Of a stretch of 64,000 bases of DNA, positions 14,589 through 31,597 are shown one piece after another. A program made the position numbers and the translations under genes. The stretch is taken from assembly GCA_013824115.1 (NCBI GenBank), contig PNNG01000026.1, positions 62,001 to 126,000 on the forward strand, written 5' to 3'. The notes below the pieces were generated by a model. It was not told the DNA's origin, searched no databases, and was given only the letters and a program-made list of their open reading frames with translations. How positions within the stretch are numbered: the stretch's first letter is position 1; every line of letters starts with the position of its first letter. This stretch comes from Sphingobacteriaceae bacterium (GTDB taxonomy: Bacteria; Bacteroidota; Bacteroidia; UBA7662).

Positions 14589-14879
14589 ATGAGCGAGCTC
14601 ACTTCCATCAAACAAATTTTGACGGCACTCAAACCTGAGTTACGCCGCAAATATCATGTGGAATCATTGGGCTTGTTTGGATCTGTTGTCAGGGATGATT
14701 TCGGCCCTCATAGTGACATTGATATCCTGGTCGATTTCAGCAAACCCATTGGTATTGAGTTTATTGATTTGGCTGATCAACTGGAAATCGCGCTGAAGAA
14801 AAAAGTTGATTTGATATCAAAAAAAGGTGTCAAACCCACTTATCTGAAATCCATAGAATCAGATATTGTGTATGTCTAA
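14589..14879 (+). CDS. mntA: MntA-like nucleotidyltransferase antitoxin
   Basis: 96-aa minimal nucleotidyltransferase. The polymerase-beta-type core GLFGSVVRDD with the DID metal-binding pair (SDIDILVDF) and a third Asp (KKVDLIS) is intact, so it should be catalytically active. In characterised MntA/HepT modules the MNT protein adds AMP to the Tyr of the HEPN toxin and silences it. It overlaps hepT by 8 bases, and the pair sits between two terminator-like hairpins, like a small accessory cassette. Gene order (antitoxin first) is usual for the family. Confidence 0.9.
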   Translation: MSELTSIKQILTALKPELRRKYHVESLGLFGSVVRDDFGPHSDIDILVDFSKPIGIEFIDLADQLEIALKKKVDLISKKGVKPTYLKSIESDIVYV

Positions 14880-15207
14880 GCGTGAAGCGAAACTACTTAT
14901 TGGCGATATCATAGAAAGTGCTGAGAAAATCTTGGCTTATACCCAAGGAATGACTTATGATGATTTTATTGCTGATGAAAAGACCGTTGATGCGGTGATT
15001 AGGAATTTTGAAATCATTGGTGAAGCATCAAATAGGTTGCCCCTACCTTTTAAGCTTATCCATCCGGAAATTAATTGGAAACAAATGCGCGGATTTAGAA
15101 ATCGCATTGTCCACGACTACATTGGCATTGATTACACCATCGTTTGGCAAATCAAAGAGGTCTATCTGCCTCATTTATTGACTTTGTTAAAGGAGATAGG
15201 AGAATAG
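14872..15207 (+). CDS. hepT: HepT-like HEPN RNase toxin
   Basis: 111 aa, DUF86/HEPN family. The RX4HXY motif is present as RNRIVHDY (Arg, His and Tyr all intact): Arg/His give the RNase active site, and Tyr is the residue AMPylated by MntA in studied systems. It is all-helical with no membrane segment. I prefer the ATG at 14872, overlapping the mntA stop, to an upstream GTG at 14866. With MntA it forms a type VII-like toxin-antitoxin module, probably for genome stabilisation or phage defence. Confidence 0.92.
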   Translation: MSKREAKLLIGDIIESAEKILAYTQGMTYDDFIADEKTVDAVIRNFEIIGEASNRLPLPFKLIHPEINWKQMRGFRNRIVHDYIGIDYTIVWQIKEVYLPHLLTLLKEIGE

Positions 15208-16491: not shown

Positions 16492-17682
16492 TCAGTGCTC
16501 AAAAAAGGCCGAGCTGCCACCTACCCAATTGAAATCTTTGTTGAAGCGTACGCCAATGAGCTTGCCGCGACTCAACCGCGCCAAATTGGTTACCACCTCC
16601 GGCTTGTTGCTGCCTTCGGGCCACATTACCATCATGCGTATTTCAATTTTTACCCCGCCTTCGGGCGACTCAAGTACAGGGGCATATTCCACTTTGCGCT
16701 GCAGGAGGTAATGCTCAGGCTGGTCTACAGTTGCAATGGCTTCGGGGGTAACATCTACTTGCACCCCACTGCCCGCAAACGAATAAAGGGGCTTGAGTAC
16801 CCAGTTTTCTAAATCGGCAGGAATTTCTTGAAGTTCGCTTACAAATTGCGATTCGGGCACATAGCGGTTTTTGAGGAAGGGCAAGCTGTACTTGCTCATG
16901 CGAAAATACCAGTTGGGATGGCTTACCCATTCCACATCTACTTCTTGGGTGAGGTCGAAGTCGCCAATGAGGTCGGGTCGTTGCTCCAGTTCATCAAAAA
17001 TCACCCGGTTGTAAATGCGGTAAATGGGGGTTTTTACACCATCGCGCATGTAAAAGAGCTTTCGGTCTTCGCGAATCACCTTGCTCAAACAAACGGATTT
17101 TACCCCGGTTAGCTGCTCGGTGGCCATAAAATCGACCCGTGTTTTTTGCAGATGAGGCTCAAGTTCCAACAACACCACGTTTTCGGTGGGCACATTGCCT
17201 TTGATGAGGCGGTTAAGCAGCTCTACATAGGTATCGTGCGTATAGCCGCTTAAGTAGGGGCCGTAGTTTTGGGGAATCTGGTAAAGCTGGCGGTAGGTTT
17301 GGGCTAAAATAGATTGGTAACAGAAAAGGGAGGGAAATCCCTGCAGTTCAATGACCTGCGGATATAGCTTGCCGCTGTCATCCATGCAAATGGCAAAGTC
17401 GGTAATGAGCAAAGTGGGACGGCTATCGTCGCCCGGCACCCATTGATGAGCCGGAATGCCTTTTTTGCTTTGTTCGAGATAGGCAGGGTCCATGATGGCC
17501 TGGCCAATGAGTTCACAGGCCTCCACCAGTTGATCGCGCAGTTCAGCACCCACAAAAACAGGGCTTTCCGCTACCCTGAAATCAACCGCTTCACCCAGCT
17601 TTTCGGCCAGACTCAACAGCAGTTGCTCATACAAAGTGTCGCTGTATTGTGCGTTAATGGCTTGGCGTAGGTTGTTAATCAT
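16492..17682 (-). CDS. ATP-grasp-like protein of the amide-ligase cluster
   Basis: 396 aa, last gene of a three-gene leftward operon (GCS2 ligase, glutamine amidotransferase, this). The C-terminal third carries an ATP-grasp-like nucleotide site: WVLKPLYSFAGSGVQV (Lys plus Gly-rich loop), then LLQRKVEY and KIEIRMMVMW, where an acidic residue would bind Mg. The N-terminal part (LLITDFAICMDDSGKLYPQVIELQG) resembles the pre-ATP domain of carboxylate-amine ligases. I infer a peptide or amide ligase but cannot name a substrate. It overlaps the amidotransferase gene by ATGA, so the two are translationally coupled. The gene is convergent with the PlsC-like gene, with only 2 bases between the stops. 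Confidence 0.75.
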   Translation of the reverse strand: MINNLRQAINAQYSDTLYEQLLLSLAEKLGEAVDFRVAESPVFVGAELRDQLVEACELIGQAIMDPAYLEQSKKGIPAHQWVPGDDSRPTLLITDFAICMDDSGKLYPQVIELQGFPSLFCYQSILAQTYRQLYQIPQNYGPYLSGYTHDTYVELLNRLIKGNVPTENVVLLELEPHLQKTRVDFMATEQLTGVKSVCLSKVIREDRKLFYMRDGVKTPIYRIYNRVIFDELEQRPDLIGDFDLTQEVDVEWVSHPNWYFRMSKYSLPFLKNRYVPESQFVSELQEIPADLENWVLKPLYSFAGSGVQVDVTPEAIATVDQPEHYLLQRKVEYAPVLESPEGGVKIEIRMMVMWPEGSNKPEVVTNLARLSRGKLIGVRFNKDFNWVGGSSAFFEH

Positions 17683-18500
17683 GCGTGGGCCTCCGCTAAG
17701 CTGTACATGGCCATTTCCAGAAAGCGCGGAATAAGGGTGTTGTGCGTTAGCGTTATTTTATCGGAATCGTGCAAGTGCAACAACATGCTATCGTACTTCG
17801 CTTGCCCGTGGTTGTTGATGATTTGCGCTTTTTTCTCCTTGTCTTTCATATAGGCTATCATGCCCTGCGCATTGGCTTCGGGATGAAACTGCGTGCCGAA
17901 AAACTCATCGCTAAAGCGCACAGCCATGATGGCACGTTCGTAATCTACATGGTCACGGATTTTTTCGAGTGCCATGAGCTTGAATCCATGCCTTTCGATG
18001 GTTCTAAAATCGGGCTGTACCACCTGCCAATCACGCGAGTCAACCGCCCAAAAGGGATCTGGCAGTGTTTCAAGCAAGGGGTCATGAATACCGTCCTGGA
18101 ATTTGTGTACAGGAAAGGTACCGAAGGAGGTAGATCTACGCTTGGTTACTTCACCAATTCCAAAATGCTGGCAGGCCATTTGAAAGCTGTGGCAGATGAA
18201 AAACACATGCTTCTTTTGCTCGTGAACCCTGTTGTGCTTCCACAGCTGATCGATGAGCTTGAGCCAGTTTTTCTCCCAGGCAGCACCACTGAGCAGGGGT
18301 GAACCCGGACCGCCAGTACTAATGTAAATATCGTAGTCTAAACCTGGCAAGTGGTTGGCACCTCGAACATCGAAAATATCGTAACTGAGGTAAAACCGAT
18401 AGTCTTCCAGTATATCGCGCAAGTTGCGCATGCCTTGGTTGGCCGCTCCCTCGTACATATCGAGTACGGCTACCTTATAGTGTTTCTTTTTTGTATCCAT
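17679..18500 (-). CDS. Class I glutamine amidotransferase-like protein
   Basis: 273 aa. The catalytic Cys103 lies in FFICHSFQMA, with the triad His206 and Glu208 in QFHPEAN, so the triad is intact, though the usual Gly after the nucleophile is Ser. YISTGGPGSP is the conserved upstream Gly-rich motif. It should release ammonia from glutamine, or hydrolyse a gamma-glutamyl/isopeptide bond as the gamma-glutamyl hydrolases of this fold do. ATG 18500 is preferred over an in-frame TTG at 18518 because AGGGAGAAAGCAGG lies just upstream of it. It sits between the GCS2-type ligase and the ATP-grasp gene and may supply ammonia or trim the product. Confidence 0.85.
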   Translation of the reverse strand: MDTKKKHYKVAVLDMYEGAANQGMRNLRDILEDYRFYLSYDIFDVRGANHLPGLDYDIYISTGGPGSPLLSGAAWEKNWLKLIDQLWKHNRVHEQKKHVFFICHSFQMACQHFGIGEVTKRRSTSFGTFPVHKFQDGIHDPLLETLPDPFWAVDSRDWQVVQPDFRTIERHGFKLMALEKIRDHVDYERAIMAVRFSDEFFGTQFHPEANAQGMIAYMKDKEKKAQIINNHGQAKYDSMLLHLHDSDKITLTHNTLIPRFLEMAMYSLAEAHA

Positions 18501-18544
18501 CCTGCTTTCTCCCTGCAACTCCGCTGTAAAAATAACGATTCGGT

Positions 18545-19639
18545 TCAGATTCCTTTCAAGGTCTGGGCCATGTAGTAGTCAACCACTGCCCGCAGATCGT
18601 TGGTTTGTTCGTAAATGGCCAATTGCCTATCGGCTCCGGTACCGTTGTTCAAGATGTCGAATACGCGGTTGATTTCGGTACGGCTGCCTAATTCATCCAC
18701 CACATCGTCTACAAAAGCCATCAGTTCGTGGATGAGGCCACGTGTATTTACTTCCATCTCTTTGCCAAAGTCAATCATCTTTCCGTCGATGCCATAACGG
18801 CCTGCACGCCACTTGTTTTCGTTCACGAGGGCACGCTTGTAAATCATAAAATTGAGGTTCTGCTCGCGCAACTTGTACAGCTTGGCCACCAAAGCTTGAA
18901 TGAGTGCCGTAATGGCAATGGTTTCATCCACGGTCATGGGTACATCACAAATGCGGAATTCTATGGTATCGAAAAACGGATGCACGCGTACGTCCCACCA
19001 GATTTTTTTGGCATTGTCGATACAGTTGGTCTTCACCAGCAACTTCACATAGTTTTCGTATTCGGCAAAACTTTCGAAAAAATCGGGGATTCCGGTGCGT
19101 GGGAATTTGTCGAATACCTTGGAGCGGAACGACTTAAAACCGGTATTTCGGCCTTCCCAAAAGGGTGAGTTGGTACTGAGGGCATAAATGTGCGGTAAAA
19201 AGTAACGCACCGAGTTGGCAATGTGGATGGCCATTTCTTTATCGGGCATGCCTACATGCACGTGCAAGCCGAAAATGAGGTTCGAACGGGCTGCATCTTG
19301 CAACTCGTTTACAATTTCATTGTAACGCGGATGCTCAGTAATGAGCTGCGTTTGCCACATGCTAAAGGGGTGGGTGCCCGCTGCCCCGATGGCAAAACCC
19401 AATTCACCAGCCACTTGCGATACCACCCTGCGCAGATGCGATACCTCGGCGCGGGCCTGGTGTATGTCCTGACAAATACGCGTACCCACTTCCACCACTG
19501 CCTGGTGCATTTCGGCCTTCACTTGGTCTTCTAACAGTCGGTTGGCGGCCTCAACAATTTTTTGATCGTGGGAGGTAAGTTCGCGGCTAACGGGGTCAAT
19601 TACCTGAAATTCTTCTTCTACGCCCAGGGTAAACTTCAT
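18545..19639 (-). CDS. GCS2/YbdK-type carboxylate-amine ligase
   Basis: 364 aa, length and sequence of the COG2170 glutamate-cysteine ligase-like family. The N-terminal TLGVEEEFQVID carries the metal-binding Glu cluster, with VEVGTRICQDI, GLHVHVGMPD (conserved His pair), WWDVRVHPFFDTIEFRICDVP and ENKWRAGRYG further on. These enzymes join an amino acid carboxylate to an amine using ATP; E. coli YbdK makes gamma-glutamylcysteine weakly. The substrates here are unknown. It is the first gene of a leftward operon with the amidotransferase and an ATP-grasp protein. A terminator lies upstream, separating it from the second ATP-grasp gene. Confidence 0.92.
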   Translation of the reverse strand: MKFTLGVEEEFQVIDPVSRELTSHDQKIVEAANRLLEDQVKAEMHQAVVEVGTRICQDIHQARAEVSHLRRVVSQVAGELGFAIGAAGTHPFSMWQTQLITEHPRYNEIVNELQDAARSNLIFGLHVHVGMPDKEMAIHIANSVRYFLPHIYALSTNSPFWEGRNTGFKSFRSKVFDKFPRTGIPDFFESFAEYENYVKLLVKTNCIDNAKKIWWDVRVHPFFDTIEFRICDVPMTVDETIAITALIQALVAKLYKLREQNLNFMIYKRALVNENKWRAGRYGIDGKMIDFGKEMEVNTRGLIHELMAFVDDVVDELGSRTEINRVFDILNNGTGADRQLAIYEQTNDLRAVVDYYMAQTLKGI

Positions 19640-19674
19640 ACAACAGCTTTTAGGATTTAAGACGATGGCAAATT

Positions 19675-19705
19675 AAAAAAGCCCCGCGAGTTGCGGGGCT
19701 TTTTT
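19675..19705. terminator. Bidirectional terminator inside the ligase cluster
   Basis: AAAAAAGCCCCGC and GCGGGGCTTTTTT flank a GAGTT loop, giving a 7-bp GC stem with A/T tails on both sides. It ends transcription of the leftward AT-hook-tailed ATP-grasp gene before the GCS2 ligase gene, so partial read-through or a second promoter is needed for the trio. Confidence 0.9.
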
Positions 19706-19725
19706 GAAAAAAAATATTTGAAAAA

Positions 19726-21255
19726 TTATTGAGGGTCGTTCCCCATCATTTTTTCGGCAGCCAATACGGCATCTAATCCAATGAGTTCACCAAAGGGCTT
19801 CTCCATCTTCACGCGTTTTTTGCGCTCTGGCTTCTGCACTTTCGGTTTGGGACCGCGTTTGGCCTTGGGCGCTGGCTTGGGTATAGAGCCTGTGATGGCG
19901 GCTTTGGGCTTGCGACCTCTTTTTCCGACTGCTTTTTCAGCAGCAGGCGCAGCAGCGGCTTTGGCGGGACGGCCACGGCGCTTCGGCGCTTCAGTGATGT
20001 CGGTTGTGGTGATTTTGGCTTGTGCCGGACGACCCCGTTTTTTAGGAGTCACTGCTACCTTCACATCATCGGCTGATACCACCTTTGGTTTGCGTCCCCT
20101 TTTTTTGGGTTCGCTCGCAGCTGTTTCAACGATGGCCTTGGGCTTGCGTCCTCTTTTTTTAGGCGCTGTTTCCAAGTCAGTTGCTTCGATGGTAGTTTTC
20201 TCTTTGGGTTTGCGTCCACGCTTTTTGGGTGCCACATTCGCTTCCTGAACTTTGGCTTTGCGACCACGGCGTTCAGGCGTGCTCACCACTGCGGTTTCCA
20301 TGCGGAATTCGCCCATGCCTGCTGCGCCACTGCGCACGTAAGTTCCCCAAGTGAGGTTGTCTGCACCGGGCTTTTGGGCCAAAGCACGTTCAATGGCATA
20401 ATTGGCAGCCGTTTCAACTACCCATTCGAAGTTTTCGGCTCCTACCGAATTGATATCGGCATCGGGGGCAGGATTGCAGAAGTCGATAGCATAAGGAACG
20501 CCATCACGCACCGCAAATTCAACCGTATTAAAATCATAACCCAATGCATTGTTGAGTCTCAACACATAATCGGTAAGGCGTGCCAGCATTTGTTCGCTGG
20601 GCTTGCGGTCGGTTACATAACGGAGATGGTGTGGATTGCGCGGCTCGTAAGGCATAATGCGCACGTGTTTGCGACCAATGCAATAGCAGCGATAATACTC
20701 TTCGAAAACAATTTCTTCTTGAAGCATCATCACCAGGGTATCGGTTTCATTGTGTTTGGCGAAAAGATCGTCGAGATTTTCCACCCGGTAAACACTCTTC
20801 CAGCCTCCACCGGCATGCGGTTTCATATATGCCGGGAAGCCTATTTCATTTACAATGCCATCCCAATCCATGGGGTAGTGCAAATTGCGAAACGAGGCAG
20901 GCGTGGTATCGGGTGGCATTTGATTAGAAGGAAGCAATACCGTTCTTGGAACTGGTACACCTACTTGGATGGCCAAACAGTTGTTAAAGAATTTTTCATC
21001 GGCACTCCACCAAAAAGGATTGTTGATTACCGCAGTGCCTTGTAAAGCAGCATTCTTCAAATAGGCGCGATAAAAGGGCACATCCTGAGAAATACGATCG
21101 ATGATTACCGCATATCCGCTGTCTTTGCCTTGAATTACCTTGTCGATGAGTACTGGTTCTGCTAGAATTCCCGGAACGTTTTTGGAATTAATCCGTGCAA
21201 CCACAGCTTCTGGAAATGTATTTTCCTGACCGTGCAAAATGCCGATTTTCTTCAT
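19726..21255 (-). CDS. ATP-grasp ligase with long AT-hook-like basic tail
   Basis: 509 aa. Residues about 1-310 are a D-Ala-D-Ala-ligase/RimK-like ATP-grasp: AYMKPHAGGGWKSVY (nucleotide-binding Lys and loop), LVMMLQEEIVFEE, and the Mg site NTVEFAVRDGVPYAIDFCNP. Residues about 318-505 are a low-complexity basic region with at least six KKRGRKPK/RRGRPAK-type motifs (RGR cores) separated by Ala/Thr/Glu linkers, resembling eukaryotic AT-hooks or a histone-H1-like tail. The catalytic domain looks intact. The tail could bind DNA, RNA or polyanions, or be a substrate of the ligase system; this is inference. It is divergent from the esterase and followed by a terminator. Confidence 0.87.
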   Translation of the reverse strand: MKKIGILHGQENTFPEAVVARINSKNVPGILAEPVLIDKVIQGKDSGYAVIIDRISQDVPFYRAYLKNAALQGTAVINNPFWWSADEKFFNNCLAIQVGVPVPRTVLLPSNQMPPDTTPASFRNLHYPMDWDGIVNEIGFPAYMKPHAGGGWKSVYRVENLDDLFAKHNETDTLVMMLQEEIVFEEYYRCYCIGRKHVRIMPYEPRNPHHLRYVTDRKPSEQMLARLTDYVLRLNNALGYDFNTVEFAVRDGVPYAIDFCNPAPDADINSVGAENFEWVVETAANYAIERALAQKPGADNLTWGTYVRSGAAGMGEFRMETAVVSTPERRGRKAKVQEANVAPKKRGRKPKEKTTIEATDLETAPKKRGRKPKAIVETAASEPKKRGRKPKVVSADDVKVAVTPKKRGRPAQAKITTTDITEAPKRRGRPAKAAAAPAAEKAVGKRGRKPKAAITGSIPKPAPKAKRGPKPKVQKPERKKRVKMEKPFGELIGLDAVLAAEKMMGNDPQ

Positions 21256-21356
21256 AGAATAATTTTCTTTTGTTACAACTCTGTTATGCCCTCTAAATTA
21301 GAACAATTGTATTTAATAGCATGAATCTCAATCGATTTTTTTGGGTGTTGATATTT

Positions 21357-21391
21357 TTTGCAAGCCCTGTTTCGCTGAATTTGTATGTTTG
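21357..21391 (+). promoter_or_regulatory. Possible promoter of the esterase gene
   Basis: TATGTTTG (21384-21391) matches TAnnTTTG, with TTTG at 21357-21360 and a 23-base spacer, slightly longer than usual. If used, transcription would begin near or just after the ATG at 21398, which would favour the internal ATG at 21416 (MPAPAG) as the start. Confidence 0.4.
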
Positions 21392-21397
21392 CAACGC

Positions 21398-22225
21398 ATG
21401 AATATTGTCTCAAAAATGCCTGCTCCTGCTGGACTTCAACAACCTTTGGCCTTGTTGGATTTACAAAAAATAAGCTCCAATTATTTAGGAAGAGAGGTGA
21501 TATTCAACGTGTTAGTTCCAGCTCAGCATCCTGGCCCATGGAAATTACTGCTGATAAACGATGGTCAAGATTTGGAGGGCCTGCAGCTTTTCAAGCATAT
21601 GAATAAATTGGCCAGGCAGGGTGAAATACGACCTACATTGGTAGTAGCTGTGCATGCCGAAAACCGACTTCAGGAATATGGTGTGGCCGGAAATCCCGAT
21701 TATTTACAGCGCGGCGCAAAAGCAAGTCAATACACTTTTTTTGTGATGAAGGAATTATTGCCACTCATTGAGGGGCATTTTCCGATATCGAACAGGGCGT
21801 CGGATAGGGTTATTGCAGGTTGTTCTTTGGGAGGATTATCGGCCTTTGATATTGCGTGGAATTATGCTGCTAAATTCGGCAAAGTAGGTGTTTTTTCTGG
21901 TTCATTTTGGTGGAGAAACAAAGCGCTAAATGCCGGCTATACCGATGCCGATCGTATTGCACATCACATGGTTAGGGTAAGTAAGCCCGGAAGGAAATTG
22001 GAATTTTGGTTTGAAGCGGGTACAGAAGATGAAAAATCGGACCGCAACAACAACGGAATAATTGATGCCATAGACGATACACTCGATTTAATTACTGAAT
22101 TGGTCCTCAAAGGCTATGAATTAAATAAGCACATTAACTACGTTGAATTAAAAGGAGGTAAGCACGATTTGCCCACCTGGGCCAAAGTAATGCCCCAATT
22201 TTTGATTTGGGCGCTCAAAGAATAA
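21398..22225 (+). CDS. Putative esterase (enterochelin-esterase-like alpha/beta hydrolase)
   Basis: 275 aa from the ATG at 21398; an alternative ATG is at 21416. The fold is that of the esterase-D/enterochelin-esterase family (PF00756): LLINDGQDLEG, the nucleophile elbow VIAGCSLGGLSAFD, the FSGSFWW block and a C-terminal His in KGGKHDLPTWAK. There is no signal peptide, so it is cytoplasmic. Its position, divergent from the AT-hook-tailed ligase and at the edge of the cluster, suggests that it hydrolyses or activates the product of the ligases. Only 2 bases separate it from the DUF3078 gene. Confidence 0.85.
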   Translation: MNIVSKMPAPAGLQQPLALLDLQKISSNYLGREVIFNVLVPAQHPGPWKLLLINDGQDLEGLQLFKHMNKLARQGEIRPTLVVAVHAENRLQEYGVAGNPDYLQRGAKASQYTFFVMKELLPLIEGHFPISNRASDRVIAGCSLGGLSAFDIAWNYAAKFGKVGVFSGSFWWRNKALNAGYTDADRIAHHMVRVSKPGRKLEFWFEAGTEDEKSDRNNNGIIDAIDDTLDLITELVLKGYELNKHINYVELKGGKHDLPTWAKVMPQFLIWALKE

Positions 22226-24197: not shown

Positions 24198-25361
24198 TTA
24201 CCAGCACCAACCCTTGTGGCGAATGATTTGGAGGGTCTCGAATAAGCTCAGCAAGAAAATACCCGGCCTGAACTCACCTACGCTGTTTGATGGGGTGACC
24301 ACATGGTGCGGGATGTTAGGGAAATCCTTCATCGCTTCGGTATTGCCTTTGCTCAAGTGCGGACTGTTGCTGTACTTAAATTCGAAGCTCGCCACAGGCT
24401 TGTTGTTTTGCACCAATAGCAAATCGAGTTCGGCACCTGCGGCCGTCCGGTAGAAATAAGGATGGACGGTAGGCTTGAGCATCGAAACGATTTGTTGGAT
24501 GCCAAATCCCTCCCAAGAGGCTCCTTTGATCACGTCTCCTTCCAAGGCATTGAGGGTATCAATACCAGCTAACAGGTGCAAGAGTCCCGAATCGCGGATA
24601 TACACCTTGGGACTTTTTACCAAACGTTTTTGCTGGTTGGTATGAAATGGCTGCAAAGTTCGGATCAAAAACATCTGCTCAAAAAACTGCAGGTAGTTTT
24701 TCACCGTGGGCAGACTCAGTTGTGTGGCTTGTGCCAAACTGCTGTAATTGATCAGTTGGCCATGCACTGAGGTCAGCAACTGTAAAAACTGCTCGAGCTG
24801 TTGGGGAGTGGTCCGCAATTCAGCCGTGCCCAATTCGCGTTGCACATAGCTTCGGCTAAAATCGAGCAGCCATTCAAAAGCATCTTCATCGGCAGGGGCC
24901 AGGTACGAAAGGGGATAGCCGCCACGCAACCAAAGATTATCTCTGCTTTCGGCGCCTGTTTCTAGCAGTTGGAAGGGGTGGAGCTCACGAAAGTGAATGC
25001 GGCCAGCCAGGTTTTCGGAACTGCTCACCAGCAATTGGTCGGAGGCAGAACCCAGCAACAAAAAGCGTCCCGGACGGCGGTCGGCATCCACCAAACTGCG
25101 CAGCACTGGGAACAGCTCAGGCATGCGCTGCACCTCGTCAATGACAATGCGTTTGTCGGCATTTTTCTCTAGAAAGAACTCCGGATCGCTCAAACGCAGC
25201 TGATCTGAAGGTCGTTCTAGATCAAGATACAGGCTGTTGGAAGGGTCTACCAGCTGCCTGGCGAGCGTGGTTTTACCCACCTGTCGCGGTCCCAACAAGG
25301 CCACCACTGGGTACTTTCCCAAAGCCTTTTGCAAGCCAGATATAGCCAGTCTTTCAATCAT
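24198..25361 (-). CDS. AAA ATPase with DUF4143 domain
   Basis: 387 aa. Walker A is LLGPRQVGKTTLARQ near residue 23, Walker B is RIVIDEVQRMPEL, and the sensor-1 block is LLLGSASDQLLVSSSENLAGR. A winged-helix-like stretch follows (SYSSLAQATQLSLPTVKNYL region). The C-terminal DUF4143 part contains a PD-(D/E)XK-like set, AELDLLLV followed 13 residues later by EFK. These proteins are common in accessory DNA, and their cellular role is not well established. The start codon lies 2 bases from the palindrome that forms the right end of cassette A. Confidence 0.9.
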   Translation of the reverse strand: MIERLAISGLQKALGKYPVVALLGPRQVGKTTLARQLVDPSNSLYLDLERPSDQLRLSDPEFFLEKNADKRIVIDEVQRMPELFPVLRSLVDADRRPGRFLLLGSASDQLLVSSSENLAGRIHFRELHPFQLLETGAESRDNLWLRGGYPLSYLAPADEDAFEWLLDFSRSYVQRELGTAELRTTPQQLEQFLQLLTSVHGQLINYSSLAQATQLSLPTVKNYLQFFEQMFLIRTLQPFHTNQQKRLVKSPKVYIRDSGLLHLLAGIDTLNALEGDVIKGASWEGFGIQQIVSMLKPTVHPYFYRTAAGAELDLLLVQNNKPVASFEFKYSNSPHLSKGNTEAMKDFPNIPHHVVTPSNSVGEFRPGIFLLSLFETLQIIRHKGWCW

Positions 25362-25362
25362 A

Positions 25363-25406
25363 ATCCTTGCAAATTTAAAGTGTACTTCGAAAATTGCAAG
25401 GATAAT
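25363..25406. repeat. Right palindrome of cassette A
   Basis: ATCCTTGCAAATTT (25363-25376) pairs with AAAATTGCAAGGAT (25390-25403) with one mismatch. It shares its central GTACTTCG and right arm with the left copy in direct orientation, and overlaps the promoter region of the ATPase gene. Confidence 0.85.
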
Positions 25407-25482
25407 TTGAAAGGTGCTACTTGATTATATGCTTGGAAGTTGGTAGTGCAGTGGGTTTTTATGCTTCCTTGATGAAATGTAT

Positions 25483-25521
25483 TCCCTGCAAAATTAAAAA
25501 ATAATTTTAAATTTGCAGGGA
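25483..25521. repeat. Left palindrome of cassette B
   Basis: TCCCTGCAAAATT (25483-25495) pairs with AAATTTGCAGGGA (25509-25521) with one mismatch. The last base is also the A of the ATG of the ATPase gene, so the palindrome replaces the normal leader. Confidence 0.8.
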
Positions 25522-26684
25522 TGATTGAAAGGGGCTTGGCAGAAAAGCTGCGGCAAAGACTTCAAAGATTTCCTGCTGTAGGTGTTTTGGGTGCACGTCA
25601 GGTGGGTAAAACCACGCTGGTTCGAGAACTTTTAGCGAGCCTGGCGCAGCCATTTGTCTTTATTGATGCCGAGCGCCCTTCTGACAGAAGGAAAATTGAG
25701 GTGAACCCGGAGTTCTTCTTGGAAATGCACCGCGATAAATTGGTGGTGATTGATGAAGTGCAACATTTGCCTGCTTTGTTTCCGCTTTTGCGGGCAGAAA
25801 TTGATGAAATACGCAAAGCAGGACGTTTTTTGCTATTGGGCTCTGGCAGTCCCGAACTTCTGCGCCAAAGCTCTGAATCCTTGGCTGGCCGCATCAGCTA
25901 CCTCGAACTAGGTCCTTTAAATCTGTTGGAAGTACCGACCGATTGGCAGCGCTTGTGGCTGTTAGGTGGTTTCCCTGAAATTTGGAAGGAATCGCTTAAC
26001 CAGTCGGATGCACATGAATGGCTACAAGCTTACATAGCCACCTTAATTGGACGCGATTTGCCCATGATGGGCTTGTCAGCGCGTAAACTCGATTTGTTCC
26101 GCTTTATTTCTATGTTGGCCTACCTCCAAGGGCAGCCCGAAAACGCTGCTGAACTGTCGCGTTCGTTAGGCGTGAGTCAGCCAACTGTGAAAAATGCCAT
26201 TGATTTTTTGGAACATGCTTTTTTGATCCAGCGCTTACCAGCCTGGCACACGAATTTGCCCAAGCGAATGGTCAAAGTACCGCGATTGTATTTTAGAGAT
26301 AGCGGCTTATTGCACCAACTCTTGCACATCTCCTCTTTAGACGAATTGCTTGCACATCCCATCGCAGGGCATTCGTTTGAGGGCTTTATCATCAGTCAGT
26401 GTAAAGCCTTGTTGCCAACCAACTGGGAGATGTATTTTTACCGCACCCAAGACGGTACCGAGGCGGATATTGTGCTGGTAAAAGCCAATAAAGTACGTTT
26501 TCTGGTCGAAGTTAAGCTAGGTGCTTCCGAAAAGGTTACTAAAAGCATGCGGCAGTCGATGTGCGACTTACAGCCCGACCGACTTTTGATTGTCGGCGCC
26601 AAGGAAGCCGATTTTATGCTCGACGAACAGATTCAAGTGCTAGGCCCTTCAGCATGGGTGACCTTTTTACACTCGTTGAAGTAA
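25521..26684 (+). CDS. AAA ATPase with DUF4143 domain (second copy)
   Basis: 387 aa, same length and layout as the gene at 24198 but clearly diverged. Walker A GARQVGKTTLVRE, Walker B LVVIDEVQHLPAL and LLLGSGSPELLRQSSESLAGR are intact. After a winged-helix-like block (ELSRSLGVSQPTVKNAI) comes DUF4143 with TEADIVLV, then 13 residues later EVK, the same PD-(D/E)XK-like spacing as in the first copy. The start codon is fused to the palindrome at its 5' side, and a matching palindrome lies after the stop. Function unproven; DUF4143 ATPases are scattered, often in multiple copies, in Bacteroidota. Confidence 0.9.
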   Translation: MIERGLAEKLRQRLQRFPAVGVLGARQVGKTTLVRELLASLAQPFVFIDAERPSDRRKIEVNPEFFLEMHRDKLVVIDEVQHLPALFPLLRAEIDEIRKAGRFLLLGSGSPELLRQSSESLAGRISYLELGPLNLLEVPTDWQRLWLLGGFPEIWKESLNQSDAHEWLQAYIATLIGRDLPMMGLSARKLDLFRFISMLAYLQGQPENAAELSRSLGVSQPTVKNAIDFLEHAFLIQRLPAWHTNLPKRMVKVPRLYFRDSGLLHQLLHISSLDELLAHPIAGHSFEGFIISQCKALLPTNWEMYFYRTQDGTEADIVLVKANKVRFLVEVKLGASEKVTKSMRQSMCDLQPDRLLIVGAKEADFMLDEQIQVLGPSAWVTFLHSLK

Positions 26685-27370: not shown

Positions 27371-30300
27371 ATGCAGTACGATATTCAAGAAGAAGTAAAA
27401 AAGCGCATCCTGGTGCTCGATGGCGCCATGGGAACGCAAATTCAGAACTACAAACTCACGGAGGCCGATTACCGCGGCAGCCGCTTTGCCGACTGGCCGT
27501 CGGACCTCAAGGGCAACAACGAGCTCTTGTCGCTCACCCAGCCACACATCATCGGAAACATCCACCGCGCCTATTTTGAGGCAGGTGCCGACATTGCCGA
27601 AACCAATACCTTCAATGCCCAGCGCATTTCGATGGCCGATTATGGCATGGAGGAGCTGAGCTACGAACTCAATTACGCCTCGGCCCAACTGGCACGCCAA
27701 GTGGCCGATGAATTCACAGCTGCCAATCCCGCCAAGCCGCGCTTCGTAGCCGGTGCCATGGGCCCTACCAACCGCACGGCCAGTATCAGTCCCGATGTGA
27801 ACAACCCCGGCTACCGCGCTATCGTTTTCGACGACCTGGTGGCTGCCTATTACGAACAAATCCGCGGCTTGGTCGACGGTGGGGTAGATGCCCTGCTGGT
27901 AGAAACCATTTTCGATACGTTGAATGCCAAGGCGGCGCTTTATGCCATCGACCAATATTTCCGCGACCACCAACGTGCACCGCTGCCCATCATGGTGAGC
28001 GGTACCATTACCGACAACAGTGGCCGTACGTTAAGCGGACAAACCGTGGAGGCATTCCTTTATTCAATGTCGCATTTGCCCTTGTTGAGCATCGGTTTGA
28101 ACTGCGCTTTGGGAGCAGCCCAAATGCGTCCGCACTTGCAGGCCTTGTCGAAAGCTGCCAAATTCCGCATTTCGGCCCACCCCAACGCGGGTTTGCCCAA
28201 TGCTTTTGGCGAGTACGATGAGAGTCCAGCCATGATGCGTGCCCACATCAAAGACTTCCTCGACAACAATTTTGTAAACATCATCGGTGGGTGTTGCGGC
28301 ACCTCGCCCGACCACATCCGAGAAATTGCGGCGGAGGCGGCTCTGCATCAGCCTCGGACCATGCCTGCCTTGGAGCCGGTGATGCACCTCAGTGGTTTGG
28401 AGCCGGTGAGCATCACCAAGCAGACCAATTTTGTGAACGTGGGTGAGCGTACCAACGTGACCGGTTCGCGTATGTTTGCCCGCCTCATTAAAGAAGAAAA
28501 GTACGACGAAGCCGTGGAAGTTGCCCGCCAGCAGGTGGAAAACGGCGCGCAGGTCATCGACGTGAACTTCGATGAAGGCATGCTCGACTCCGAAGCCGCC
28601 ATGACCCTCTTCCTCAACCTCATTGCCGCCGAGCCCGACATTGCCCGGGTGCCGGTGATGATCGACTCTTCCAAATGGAGCGTGATCGAAGCAGGATTGA
28701 AGTGTGTGCAAGGCAAGGCCATTGTGAATTCCATCTCGCTCAAAGAAGGAGAGGAGCGCTTCCGCTACTACGCCCATCAGGTGCGCGCTTATGGTGCCGC
28801 CGTGATAGTGATGGCATTTGACGAGCAGGGCCAAGCCGATAGTTATGAGCGCCGCACCGAAATCTGCCAGCGCGCCTACAACATCCTGGTGAATGAAATT
28901 GGCTTTCCAGCTGAAGACATCATTTTCGATCCCAACATCCTCACCGTTGCAACGGGCATTGAGGAACACAACAATTACGCGGTCGATTTTATAAAAGCTA
29001 CGCGCTGGATCAAGGAAAACCTGCCCGGCGCCAAGGTAAGCGGCGGGGTGAGCAACATCAGCTTCAGTTTCCGCGGCAACGACAAAGTGCGCGAAGCCAT
29101 GCATGCCGCCTTTTTGTACCACGCCATTCAAGCAGGTATGGACATGGGCATTGTGAATGCCGGCCAAATCGAAGTGTACGAAGAAATAGATAAAGAGCTG
29201 CTTCAGCATGTGGAAGACGTGCTGTTGAACCGCAGGGAGGATTCCACCGAACGCCTCATCCAGCTGGCCGAACAATACAAAGGTGGCAAAGGCAAAGAAG
29301 CCGCTGCCAAAGACGAGACCTGGCGCCTTGAACCCGTACAAACACGCCTTACCCACGCCTTGGTGAAAGGCATTGATGAATACATTGATGTGGACGTGGA
29401 AGAAGCCCGTCACCAATTCAGCAAGCCGCTTCAGGTGATTGAAGGGCCCTTGATGGCCGGTATGAACGTGGTAGGCGACCTTTTTGGCGCCGGCAAGATG
29501 TTTTTGCCGCAGGTAGTAAAAAGCGCCAGGGTAATGAAAAAGGCCGTAGCCTATCTAATGCCCTATCTCGAAGCAGAAAAGCTGGCTAACCCAAGTGAAA
29601 ACCAGCAAGCCAAGGGTAAAATTCTGATGGCAACGGTAAAAGGTGATGTACACGACATCGGCAAAAACATCGTGGGTGTGGTGCTGCAGTGTAACAATTA
29701 CGATGTAGTAGATCTCGGTGTGATGGTAAGCTGCGAAAAAATTCTCCAAGCGGCCATTGAGCATGAGGTGGATGTGATTGGCCTTTCGGGCCTCATTACC
29801 CCTTCACTCGACGAAATGGTGTTTGTAGCTTCCGAAATGGAGCGTTTGGGCATTAAAAAGCCTTTGTTGATAGGCGGTGCTACCACCTCCAGAGCGCATA
29901 CTGCTGTGAAAATAGCTCCTGTTTTCAATGGCACAGTGGTACATGTACTCGATGCCAGTCGCTCTGTGCCGGTGGTAAGTTCGCTGCTCAGTCACGAGCA
30001 GCGGGATGCTTTTGCCGCCAATACCAAGGTGGAATACGACAAACTGCGTGAGGGCTATTTGAGTCGTGGCCGCGAAAAGGCCATGCTGACCATCGACCAA
30101 GCCCGCGCCAACCGCTTCCCCATCGATTGGAAGGCCGAAGATTTGGCGGTTCCTGCTCAGCCCGGTATCCACGAATTCCGGAATTACCCGCTCGAAACGC
30201 TGGTAAATTACATCGACTGGACGCCCTTCTTCCAGGCTTGGGAATTGCATGGCAGGTACCCCAATATCCTGCACGACGAGGTAGTGGGAGAAGCTGCTAC

Positions 30301-31597
30301 CAAGCTCTTCGAAGACGCACAACACATGCTCAAGGCCATTGTGAAGGAGCAATGGCTGGATGCGCGGGCGGTTTTTGGTCTGTTTGGGGCCAATGCGGAA
30401 GGGGATGATATCGTTTTAGCCTCACCCCCGGCCCCTCTCCAGAGGAGAGGGGAGAGTGATTTTGGTAGCGAGAATAATGATACTGAACGAGGTGAAAAAG
30501 GTAGAAAGTCGAATGTGTTTAAGGCTTCACCTGATGCTTACGGCTTCCTCAAGCCTATTGCACGCGAGTTTAGAAAGGAAATGACACCTGCAGAAGAATT
30601 GCTCTGGAAGCACGTTCGGAATAGCCAACTTGGACATAAAATCAGAAGGCAGCATATCATTGAGAACTACGTTGTTGATTTTGTTTGCATTCAGAAGAGG
30701 TTGGTGATTGAGCTTGATGGCGGGGTTCATGCTTCACAAATAGAAGCAGATCGTCAGCGCGAATTGGATTTGAACGGCAAAGGATTTCAAATCATCCGTT
30801 TTACGAATGAGCAGGTTTTTGCTGATTTGGCAAAGGTGATAAATGAAATCAAATCAGAATTGGATAGCCGGCCGAATGTTGATGGAATTGATAATTATCA
30901 CGATGAATCGGATTTTGAAGGAACTCTTAAAAGCGCAGAGGAAGCTAGCGCCCCTCTCCCCTGGAGAGGGGATGGGGGTGAGGCTGAACCTTTCCGCTTT
31001 TTGAGTTTGAGGCAACAAGCCAAAAAAGCCGATGGCCTTCCCAATCTCGCCCTTTCCGATTTTGTAGCCCCCAAAGAAAGCGGCTTGCAAGACCATTTTG
31101 GTTTGTTTGCCGTGGGTGTATTTGGTGCGGAGGAGCGCGTAAATGAAATGAAAGCCGCCCACGATGACTACAACGCCATCCTGTTACAATCGCTTTCCGA
31201 TCGTTTGGCCGAAGCCTTTGCAGAGCATTTACATGAGCGTGTACGTAAAGAATATTGGGGTTACGAGCCGCAAGAACAACTCAGCAACGATGACCTCATC
31301 GCCGAAAAATACCGCGGCATTCGACCTGCCCCAGGTTACCCTGCTTGTCCCGACCACCTCGACAAACGTACCCTCTGGAACGTGCTGCAGGTGGAAAAAA
31401 GAATTGGCCTGACCCTCACCGAATCGATGGCCATGTGGCCTGCCGCTGCGGTGAGTGGCTATTACCTTGCCCATCCTCAATCAAAGTATTTCGGAGTTGG
31501 TAAAATCGACAAAGACCAGGTAGAGGACTACGCCCAGCGCCGAGGAGTATCCTTGAAAGAGGCTGAAAAGTGGTTAGCGCCAGCGTTGAATTATTGA
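27371..31597 (+). CDS. metH: Cobalamin-dependent methionine synthase with in-frame DUF559 insertion
   Basis: Transfers a methyl group from methyltetrahydrofolate through cobalamin to homocysteine. The order is homocysteine domain (about 1-330; Zn Cys residues in GLNCALGA and GGCCGTSP), pterin domain (about 350-620; [13 protein letters not shown]), B12 domain (about 650-890; [10 protein letters not shown], whose His ligates cobalt) and SAM-activation domain ([12 protein letters not shown]). Total length is 1408 aa; the family norm is about 1220. The excess of about 190 residues is one block (about 1016-1205) within the activation domain, between EGDDI and [10 protein letters not shown], encoding a DUF559 endonuclease domain flanked by inverted repeats. 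The frame is unbroken. ATG 27371 follows the riboswitch terminator; the TTG at 27359 is unlikely. Activity with the insertion cannot be judged from sequence. Confidence 0.96.
30418..30452. repeat. Left terminal repeat of the DUF559 cassette
   Basis: 12-bp terminal sequence AGCCTCACCCCC, then a 9-bp hairpin CCCCTCTCC (30432-30440), loop AGA, GGAGAGGGG (30444-30452). Translated in the metH frame it reads [12 protein letters not shown]. Confidence 0.9.
30951..30985. repeat. Right terminal repeat of the DUF559 cassette
   Basis: Inverted copy of the left end: hairpin CCCCTCTCC (30951-30959), loop CCT, GGAGAGGGG (30963-30971), then GGGGGTGAGGCT (30974-30985). Both inner stems and outer 12 bases match the left end exactly. 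Confidence 0.9.

Follow-up and report, generated by a model that had tools for sequence, protein, structure and literature searches.

The DNA analysed here is a stretch of 64,000 nucleotides from a Sphingobacteriaceae bacterium (assembly GCA_013824115.1, contig PNNG01000026.1, positions 62,001 to 126,000), referred to as the window, and the subject is a group of five genes at window positions 16492-22225. An earlier note on this DNA had described them as a linked amide-ligase cluster. All five open reading frames are present at the expected positions and the family calls were confirmed: the set comprises two ATP-grasp-type ligases (AGa and AGb), a GCS2-type ligase (GCS2), a protein with the fold of class I glutamine amidotransferases (GATases; here GAT) and an esterase (EST). 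Predicted structures are AlphaFold2 (AF2) models, compared with Foldseek.

16492..17682, minus strand: AGa, 396-residue ligase with the predicted fold of eukaryotic-type glutathione synthetase, GspS and YgiC (AF2, Foldseek)
17679..18500, minus strand: GAT, 273-residue class I GATase-fold protein, predicted gamma-glutamyl peptidase-like hydrolase (PF00117, AF2, Foldseek)
18545..19639, minus strand: GCS2, 364-residue YbdK-type carboxylate-amine ligase (NF010039)
19675..19705, minus strand: terminator-like hairpin between AGb and GCS2, 13 bp stem and U-tract (RNA fold)
19726..21255, minus strand: AGb, 509 residues, RimK/Ddl-like ATP-grasp ligase with a K/R-rich tail (TIGR00768, weak)
21398..22225, plus strand: EST, esterase (PF00756), divergent from AGb

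Transcription on the minus strand runs from AGb through GCS2 and GAT to AGa. The reading frames of GAT and AGa overlap by 4 nt (ATGA), and the start of EST was set at ATG 21398 in preference to TTG 21341. A single transcript for the whole set is not assured because of the strong terminator-like hairpin between AGb and GCS2 (RNA fold -21.8 kcal/mol, z -5.2), and AGb may be transcribed separately from GCS2-GAT-AGa in this genome. A consensus scan for terminators did not pick up this hairpin. The flanks look unrelated: one side has genes for an acyltransferase and a DUF502 protein, the other a gene for a DUF3078 protein.

Gene order and co-occurrence in Bacteroidota

Neighbourhoods were compared in 59 AGa loci and 80 named AGb loci. 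The latter are the best 80 matches of one genome-collection scan and nearly all are titled as Bacteroidota, the titles including Chitinophagaceae, Saprospiraceae, Cyclobacteriaceae, Spirosoma, Runella and Mucilaginibacter. Across these loci the same order recurs, whole or in part: divergent EST, an optional second PF00756-like hydrolase (ESTB), AGb, GCS2, GAT and AGa. In many relatives ESTB is the gene immediately upstream of AGb; in the window genome an ESTB-like gene is located elsewhere. The divergent placement of EST beside AGb or ESTB is conserved, and the median intergenic gaps across relatives are 37, 34 and 15 nt (range about 15-40 nt). The five-gene order, which the earlier note had proposed to check in other Bacteroidota, is thus conserved: the exact set is found in 8 of the 80 named loci, six more carry the five genes plus the second esterase, and EST-AGb-GCS2 is seen in 40 of the 80 within the retrieved DNA.

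Co-occurrence was counted in 198 genomes of the phylum Bacteroidota. AGa is carried by 60 of them, the catalytic domain of AGb by 72 (75 listed minus three tail-only matches), GCS2 by 62 and GAT by 50 (51 listed minus one marginal match). AGa and AGb occur together in 58 genomes, are both missing from 124 and are found one without the other in 16 (Fisher p about 7e-34), and AGa and GCS2 are both present in 56 and both missing from 132. Pairwise p-values among AGa, AGb and GCS2 range from 1e-31 to 1e-37. Within 11 families of mixed presence (69 genomes), AGa is concordant with AGb in 66 genomes and with GCS2 and GAT in 65 each. None of 20000 within-family shuffles reached the observed AGa concordance, a test that controls for family and not for finer phylogeny. 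Co-occurrence also persists without linkage, e.g., in genomes G033 (AGa at 4.77 Mb, AGb-GCS2 at 1.58 Mb), G150 and G027 (AGa on a separate contig). Conserved order and co-occurrence show that the five-gene grouping exceeds chance. Plasmid or viral carriage was rejected, since tblastn of AGa and AGb against plasmids gave no match and no AGa was found in viral contigs. An anti-phage defence system was rejected as well, PADLOC having matched none of the five proteins.

The variant loci indicate which parts can be exchanged. In L053 and L068, GAT is absent and an M29 metallopeptidase occupies its slot between GCS2 and AGa. Six loci that carry GAT and lack AGa were examined, and each has a circularly permuted ATP-grasp ligase of type 2 (CP_ATPgrasp_2) in the interval from AGb to GAT. 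An Amidohydro_3 enzyme adjoins GAT or AGa in 14 loci, and three loci (L100, L102 and L108) have M24 peptidases close to GAT. The conserved core is thus made up of carboxylate-amine ligases plus amide/ester hydrolases, exchangeable within each class. In one family, a Na+/solute symporter is fused to AGa (L069, 7637-10240) or lies directly upstream of it (L088, 10484-11869). The earlier statement that no transporter lies beside the genes therefore holds for the window but not for these two relatives; likewise, the five genes were named correctly, but relatives carry extras (second esterase, amidohydrolase, transporter). Seven relatives (L146, L155, L167, L173, L183, L200 and L201) have a Uma2-family nuclease gene immediately after AGb, in the downstream direction, and it lies between AGb and GCS2 wherever both were retrieved. 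It was judged a passenger and rejected as a member of the module.

Folds and catalytic residues of the ligases and hydrolases

AGa matches no Pfam family above cut-off. Its AF2 model (predicted local distance difference test score, pLDDT, 93.2) matches 3n6x (Mfla_0391; 1.4e-13), yeast glutathione synthetase (1.7e-13) and YgiC (3e-12) in Foldseek, and further human and plant glutathione synthetase, GspS, YjfC and the fungal ligase Cp1B, with E-values from 1e-13 to 1e-10 and TM-scores of about 0.6. By sequence profile the match to YgiC is weak (E=0.014), and PF03738, the Pfam model for GspS, matches 6 of 49 AGa orthologues (best 5e-5), with no match to the window AGa itself. The match of the predicted structure to the glutathione synthetase/GspS fold, together with the PF03738 matches in orthologues, settles that AGa is an ATP-grasp enzyme, and its modelled fold places it in the eukaryotic-type glutathione synthetase/GspS/YgiC superfamily. 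Residues E112, Q114, K297, E347 and R349 are invariant across orthologues, and the position of E112xQ114 ahead of K297 suggests a circularly permuted ATP-grasp. A profile comparison of AGa with AGb gave no detectable relationship, and sequence homology of AGa to CP_ATPgrasp_2 is weak (hhalign E 0.0026, probability 12%).

GCS2 passes NCBIfam NF010039 (PRK13515/YbdK-type; 551.5 vs. a cut-off of 371 bits) and TIGR02050 (307.8 vs. 176.4 bits). Its GhExE signature is intact, with G6, E8, E9 and E10 invariant, and its profile matches YbdK (1r8g) at 1.3e-68.

In AGb, residues 1-312 form a RimK/Ddl-type ATP-grasp ligase. The match to the RimK family TIGR00768 is weak (24.6 bits vs. a cut-off of 143.4; 1.4e-5) and does not place AGb in that family. 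The active-site residues K145, E246, D258 and N261 are invariant, with a mean column identity of 59% in 21 orthologues. The remaining 197 residues (313-509; window 19726-20320, minus strand) are a K/R-rich tail with repeated AT-hook-like motifs (KKRGRKPK, RGRPAK) and a GLDAVLAAEKM segment near its end. No similar stretch was found elsewhere in the same genome, where the tail is single-copy. The close relative L131 has a tail of similar kind; some lineages have K/A/P-rich tails instead, and others have none. Since it varies between orthologues, the tail was rejected as a core feature.

GAT passes PF00117 (33.9 vs. a cut-off of 22.8 bits). Its Cys103/His206/Glu208 triad, reported as intact in the earlier note, is invariant in 33 orthologues, as are S105 and Q107. 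The nucleophile motif is FICHSFQ, not the canonical GxCxGxQ. The first six Foldseek matches of the AF2 model (pLDDT 94.5) are structures of Arabidopsis gamma-glutamyl peptidase 1 (GGP1), with 9k7i at 2.5e-13 and an identity of about 14% to GGP1.

EST passes PF00756 (94 vs. a cut-off of 22 bits), and the alignment of its orthologues points to Ser143 in GCSLGG and to His256. It also matches S-formylglutathione hydrolase weakly. No signal peptide is visible by eye in EST or ESTB, and both probably act inside the cell. Beside the presumed catalytic Asp, EST orthologues have a nearly invariant EF-hand-like loop, DRNNNGIID (DRNNNGIIDSIDD), a surprising feature for an esterase in which no signal peptide is visible.

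Candidate function and alternatives

We tentatively propose, giving it slightly less than an even chance, that the module makes and turns over a small intracellular gamma-glutamyl-type peptide or amine conjugate following a glutathione-like logic. The proposal builds on the observed linkage, co-inheritance, folds, conserved catalytic residues and part replacement; the substrates and the reaction order, the direction in which the hydrolases act and the assignment of the product as gamma-glutamyl are inferred. GCS2 would activate a glutamate-type side-chain carboxylate to give a gamma-glutamyl (or similar) amide, and AGa could couple an additional amino acid or amine to the resulting acid. Either an amino acid or a polyamine is a plausible partner, because YgiC and YjfC, which share the AGa fold, are peptide-spermidine ligases according to a reference quoted by PMC12568646, and Cp1B, of the same fold, is a pseudodipeptide-forming ATP-grasp (PMC12568646). 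AGb might attach another unit. GAT would cut gamma-glutamyl bonds, like a gamma-glutamyl peptidase, instead of supplying ammonia, and EST, joined by ESTB in many relatives, may remove or edit an acyl or ester group.

Several observations weigh against such a module. AGb-GCS2 and GAT-AGa are separated in many genomes, and GCS2 was not found in four f6 genomes, so it is not always needed. GCS2 reaches none of the equivalog cut-offs for glutamate-cysteine ligase (360 vs. 409, 305.7 vs. 332 and 74 vs. 249 bits), and its putative gamma-glutamyl chemistry is therefore drawn from fold relatives. BshC, of bacillithiol synthesis, is present in 196 of the 198 genomes, the window genome included; there is no missing thiol that needs explanation, and a need of that kind was rejected. 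The fold similarity of GAT is broad, and ammonia-supplying GATases match as well, at about 1e-10.

The last point bears on an alternative that we consider unlikely, an amidated metabolite for which GAT hydrolyses glutamine and feeds ammonia to one of the ligases, yielding a primary amide. Membership in PF00117 and the full Cys-His-Glu triad agree with it, as does the 4-nt overlap of GAT and AGa, an arrangement frequent for partner subunits. However, the best structural matches of GAT are gamma-glutamyl peptidases, its nucleophile motif is not GxCxGxQ, and a metallopeptidase takes its position in two lineages, a replacement that argues against ammonia supply. Moreover, 21 of the 60 genomes with AGa have no GAT, so ammonia from GAT is not essential. 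From the GGP1 matches, the FICHSFQ motif and the M29 substitution, the modelled GAT is more likely a gamma-glutamyl peptidase-like hydrolase than the ammonia supplier envisaged in the earlier note.

It is rather improbable that the module tags proteins or peptides, with AGb and AGa adding amino acids or amines to them in a RimK-like manner and the hydrolases reversing the modification. In a variant of this alternative the basic tail of AGb targets the enzyme to the nucleoid or ribosome, or is itself the modified substrate. AGb does resemble RimK, and K/R-rich tails recur in several lineages, but many orthologues have the same catalytic domain without a tail, and neither a tag precursor nor a target gene is conserved in the neighbourhoods. 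Known GCS2 and GGP-like enzymes, furthermore, work on small molecules. The peptide tag suggested in the earlier note has no direct support.

Equally small is the probability we assign to a pathway that makes glutathione itself or a low-molecular-weight thiol (gamma-Glu-Cys-X) alongside bacillithiol, in which EST would act as a thioesterase in the manner of S-formylglutathione hydrolase. The set of folds parallels glutathione metabolism (GCS2, AGa with the glutathione synthetase fold, GGP-like GAT, and EST with its weak similarity to S-formylglutathione hydrolase), and in L064 (13963-15525) EST forms a fusion with a DinB_2 domain, itself a weak match to mycothiol-S-transferase. This fusion occurs in one genome only, however, BshC is nearly universal, and no cluster protein reaches a glutathione equivalog cut-off, for which reason canonical glutathione synthesis was rejected. 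A ribosomal peptide modified by the ATP-grasps is very improbable: ATP-grasp ligases define graspetide clusters (PMC8939145), but a precursor gene would not fit into the gaps (median 15-40 nt), no small open reading frame recurs in the neighbourhoods and the window has no exporter.

Relation to known systems and implications

Among the closest parallels to the proposed gamma-glutamyl-type module is the metabolism of glutathione and glutathionylspermidine (glutamate-cysteine ligase, glutathione synthetase, GspS and gamma-glutamyl peptidase), which has the same types of step by fold in GCS2, AGa and the GGP1-like GAT. The module differs in that a RimK/Ddl-type enzyme comes as a third ligase and PF00756 esterases are also present, that no enzyme passes a glutathione equivalog cut-off and that the host has BshC. 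By family membership no gene belongs to glutathione synthesis, the case that the earlier note had named as refuting its reading, yet AGa has the glutathione synthetase fold. E. coli YgiC and YjfC are acid-amine ligases that share this fold, and AGa matches the YgiC profile weakly, but identity in the structural alignment is about 13% and the gene partners differ. The NRPS-independent (nonribosomal peptide synthetase-independent) pathways to pseudotripeptides of the E-64 and dapdiamide type likewise use stand-alone amide ligases in sequence, and Cp1B has the fold of AGa. The E-64 pathway, however, includes an oxygenase dedicated to forming the warhead, as well as an adenylating amide synthetase (PMC12568646), and no such gene recurs in the module. 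A proteobacterial ligase family of GCS2 size occurs beside a GATase-like thiol peptidase (PMC2588565); it is separate from the GCS2 described here, and besides such a ligase-peptidase pair the module comprises two additional ligases as well as esterases. A LysW carrier pathway with a LysX-type ligase was rejected, since TIGR01206 had no match in the window's own genome (85% complete) and the Thermus control was positive. No known pathway model fits the cluster, in line with the earlier note. The combination of stand-alone amidoligase and peptidase is already known as a kind. A 2009 survey by Iyer et al. reportedly treats amidoligase neighbourhoods, with ATP-grasp/GS-like predictions. In the literature searched, which did not cover that survey, we found no earlier description of the gene set, the fold assignment of AGa, the GGP-like reading of GAT or the replacements.

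Three other features of the window were noted. In the reading frame for methionine synthase MetH (27374-31597, plus strand, 1407 residues), residues 1061-1163 form a DUF559 endonuclease-like domain, in frame and with short flanking segments of 11 and 12 residues, which splits the activation domain and looks like a mobile in-frame insertion. At 14589-15207 (plus strand) there is a nucleotidyltransferase (MNT) and HepT-like pair, a typical toxin-antitoxin arrangement, and two related AAA_14/DUF4143 ATPases lie adjacent and divergently oriented at 24198-26684.

About a third of the sampled Bacteroidota genomes hold the set nearly all-or-none, a pattern that usually marks a pathway and not loose genes. 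It is quite possible, though still short of probable, that the product is a widespread uncharacterised Bacteroidota metabolite that exists beside bacillithiol, has a synthesis-recycling cycle to itself and is built with interchangeable ligases (AGa or CP_ATPgrasp_2) and peptidases (GGP-like or M29); a gamma-glutamyl peptide or a conjugate of peptide and polyamine would be examples. If one metabolite is made, AGa, which belongs to no family, and GAT, which is listed as an amidotransferase, gain a testable role, and a glutathione-like peptide cycle would exist in bacteria that carry a bacillithiol gene. The named parts open a direct genetic and metabolomic test.

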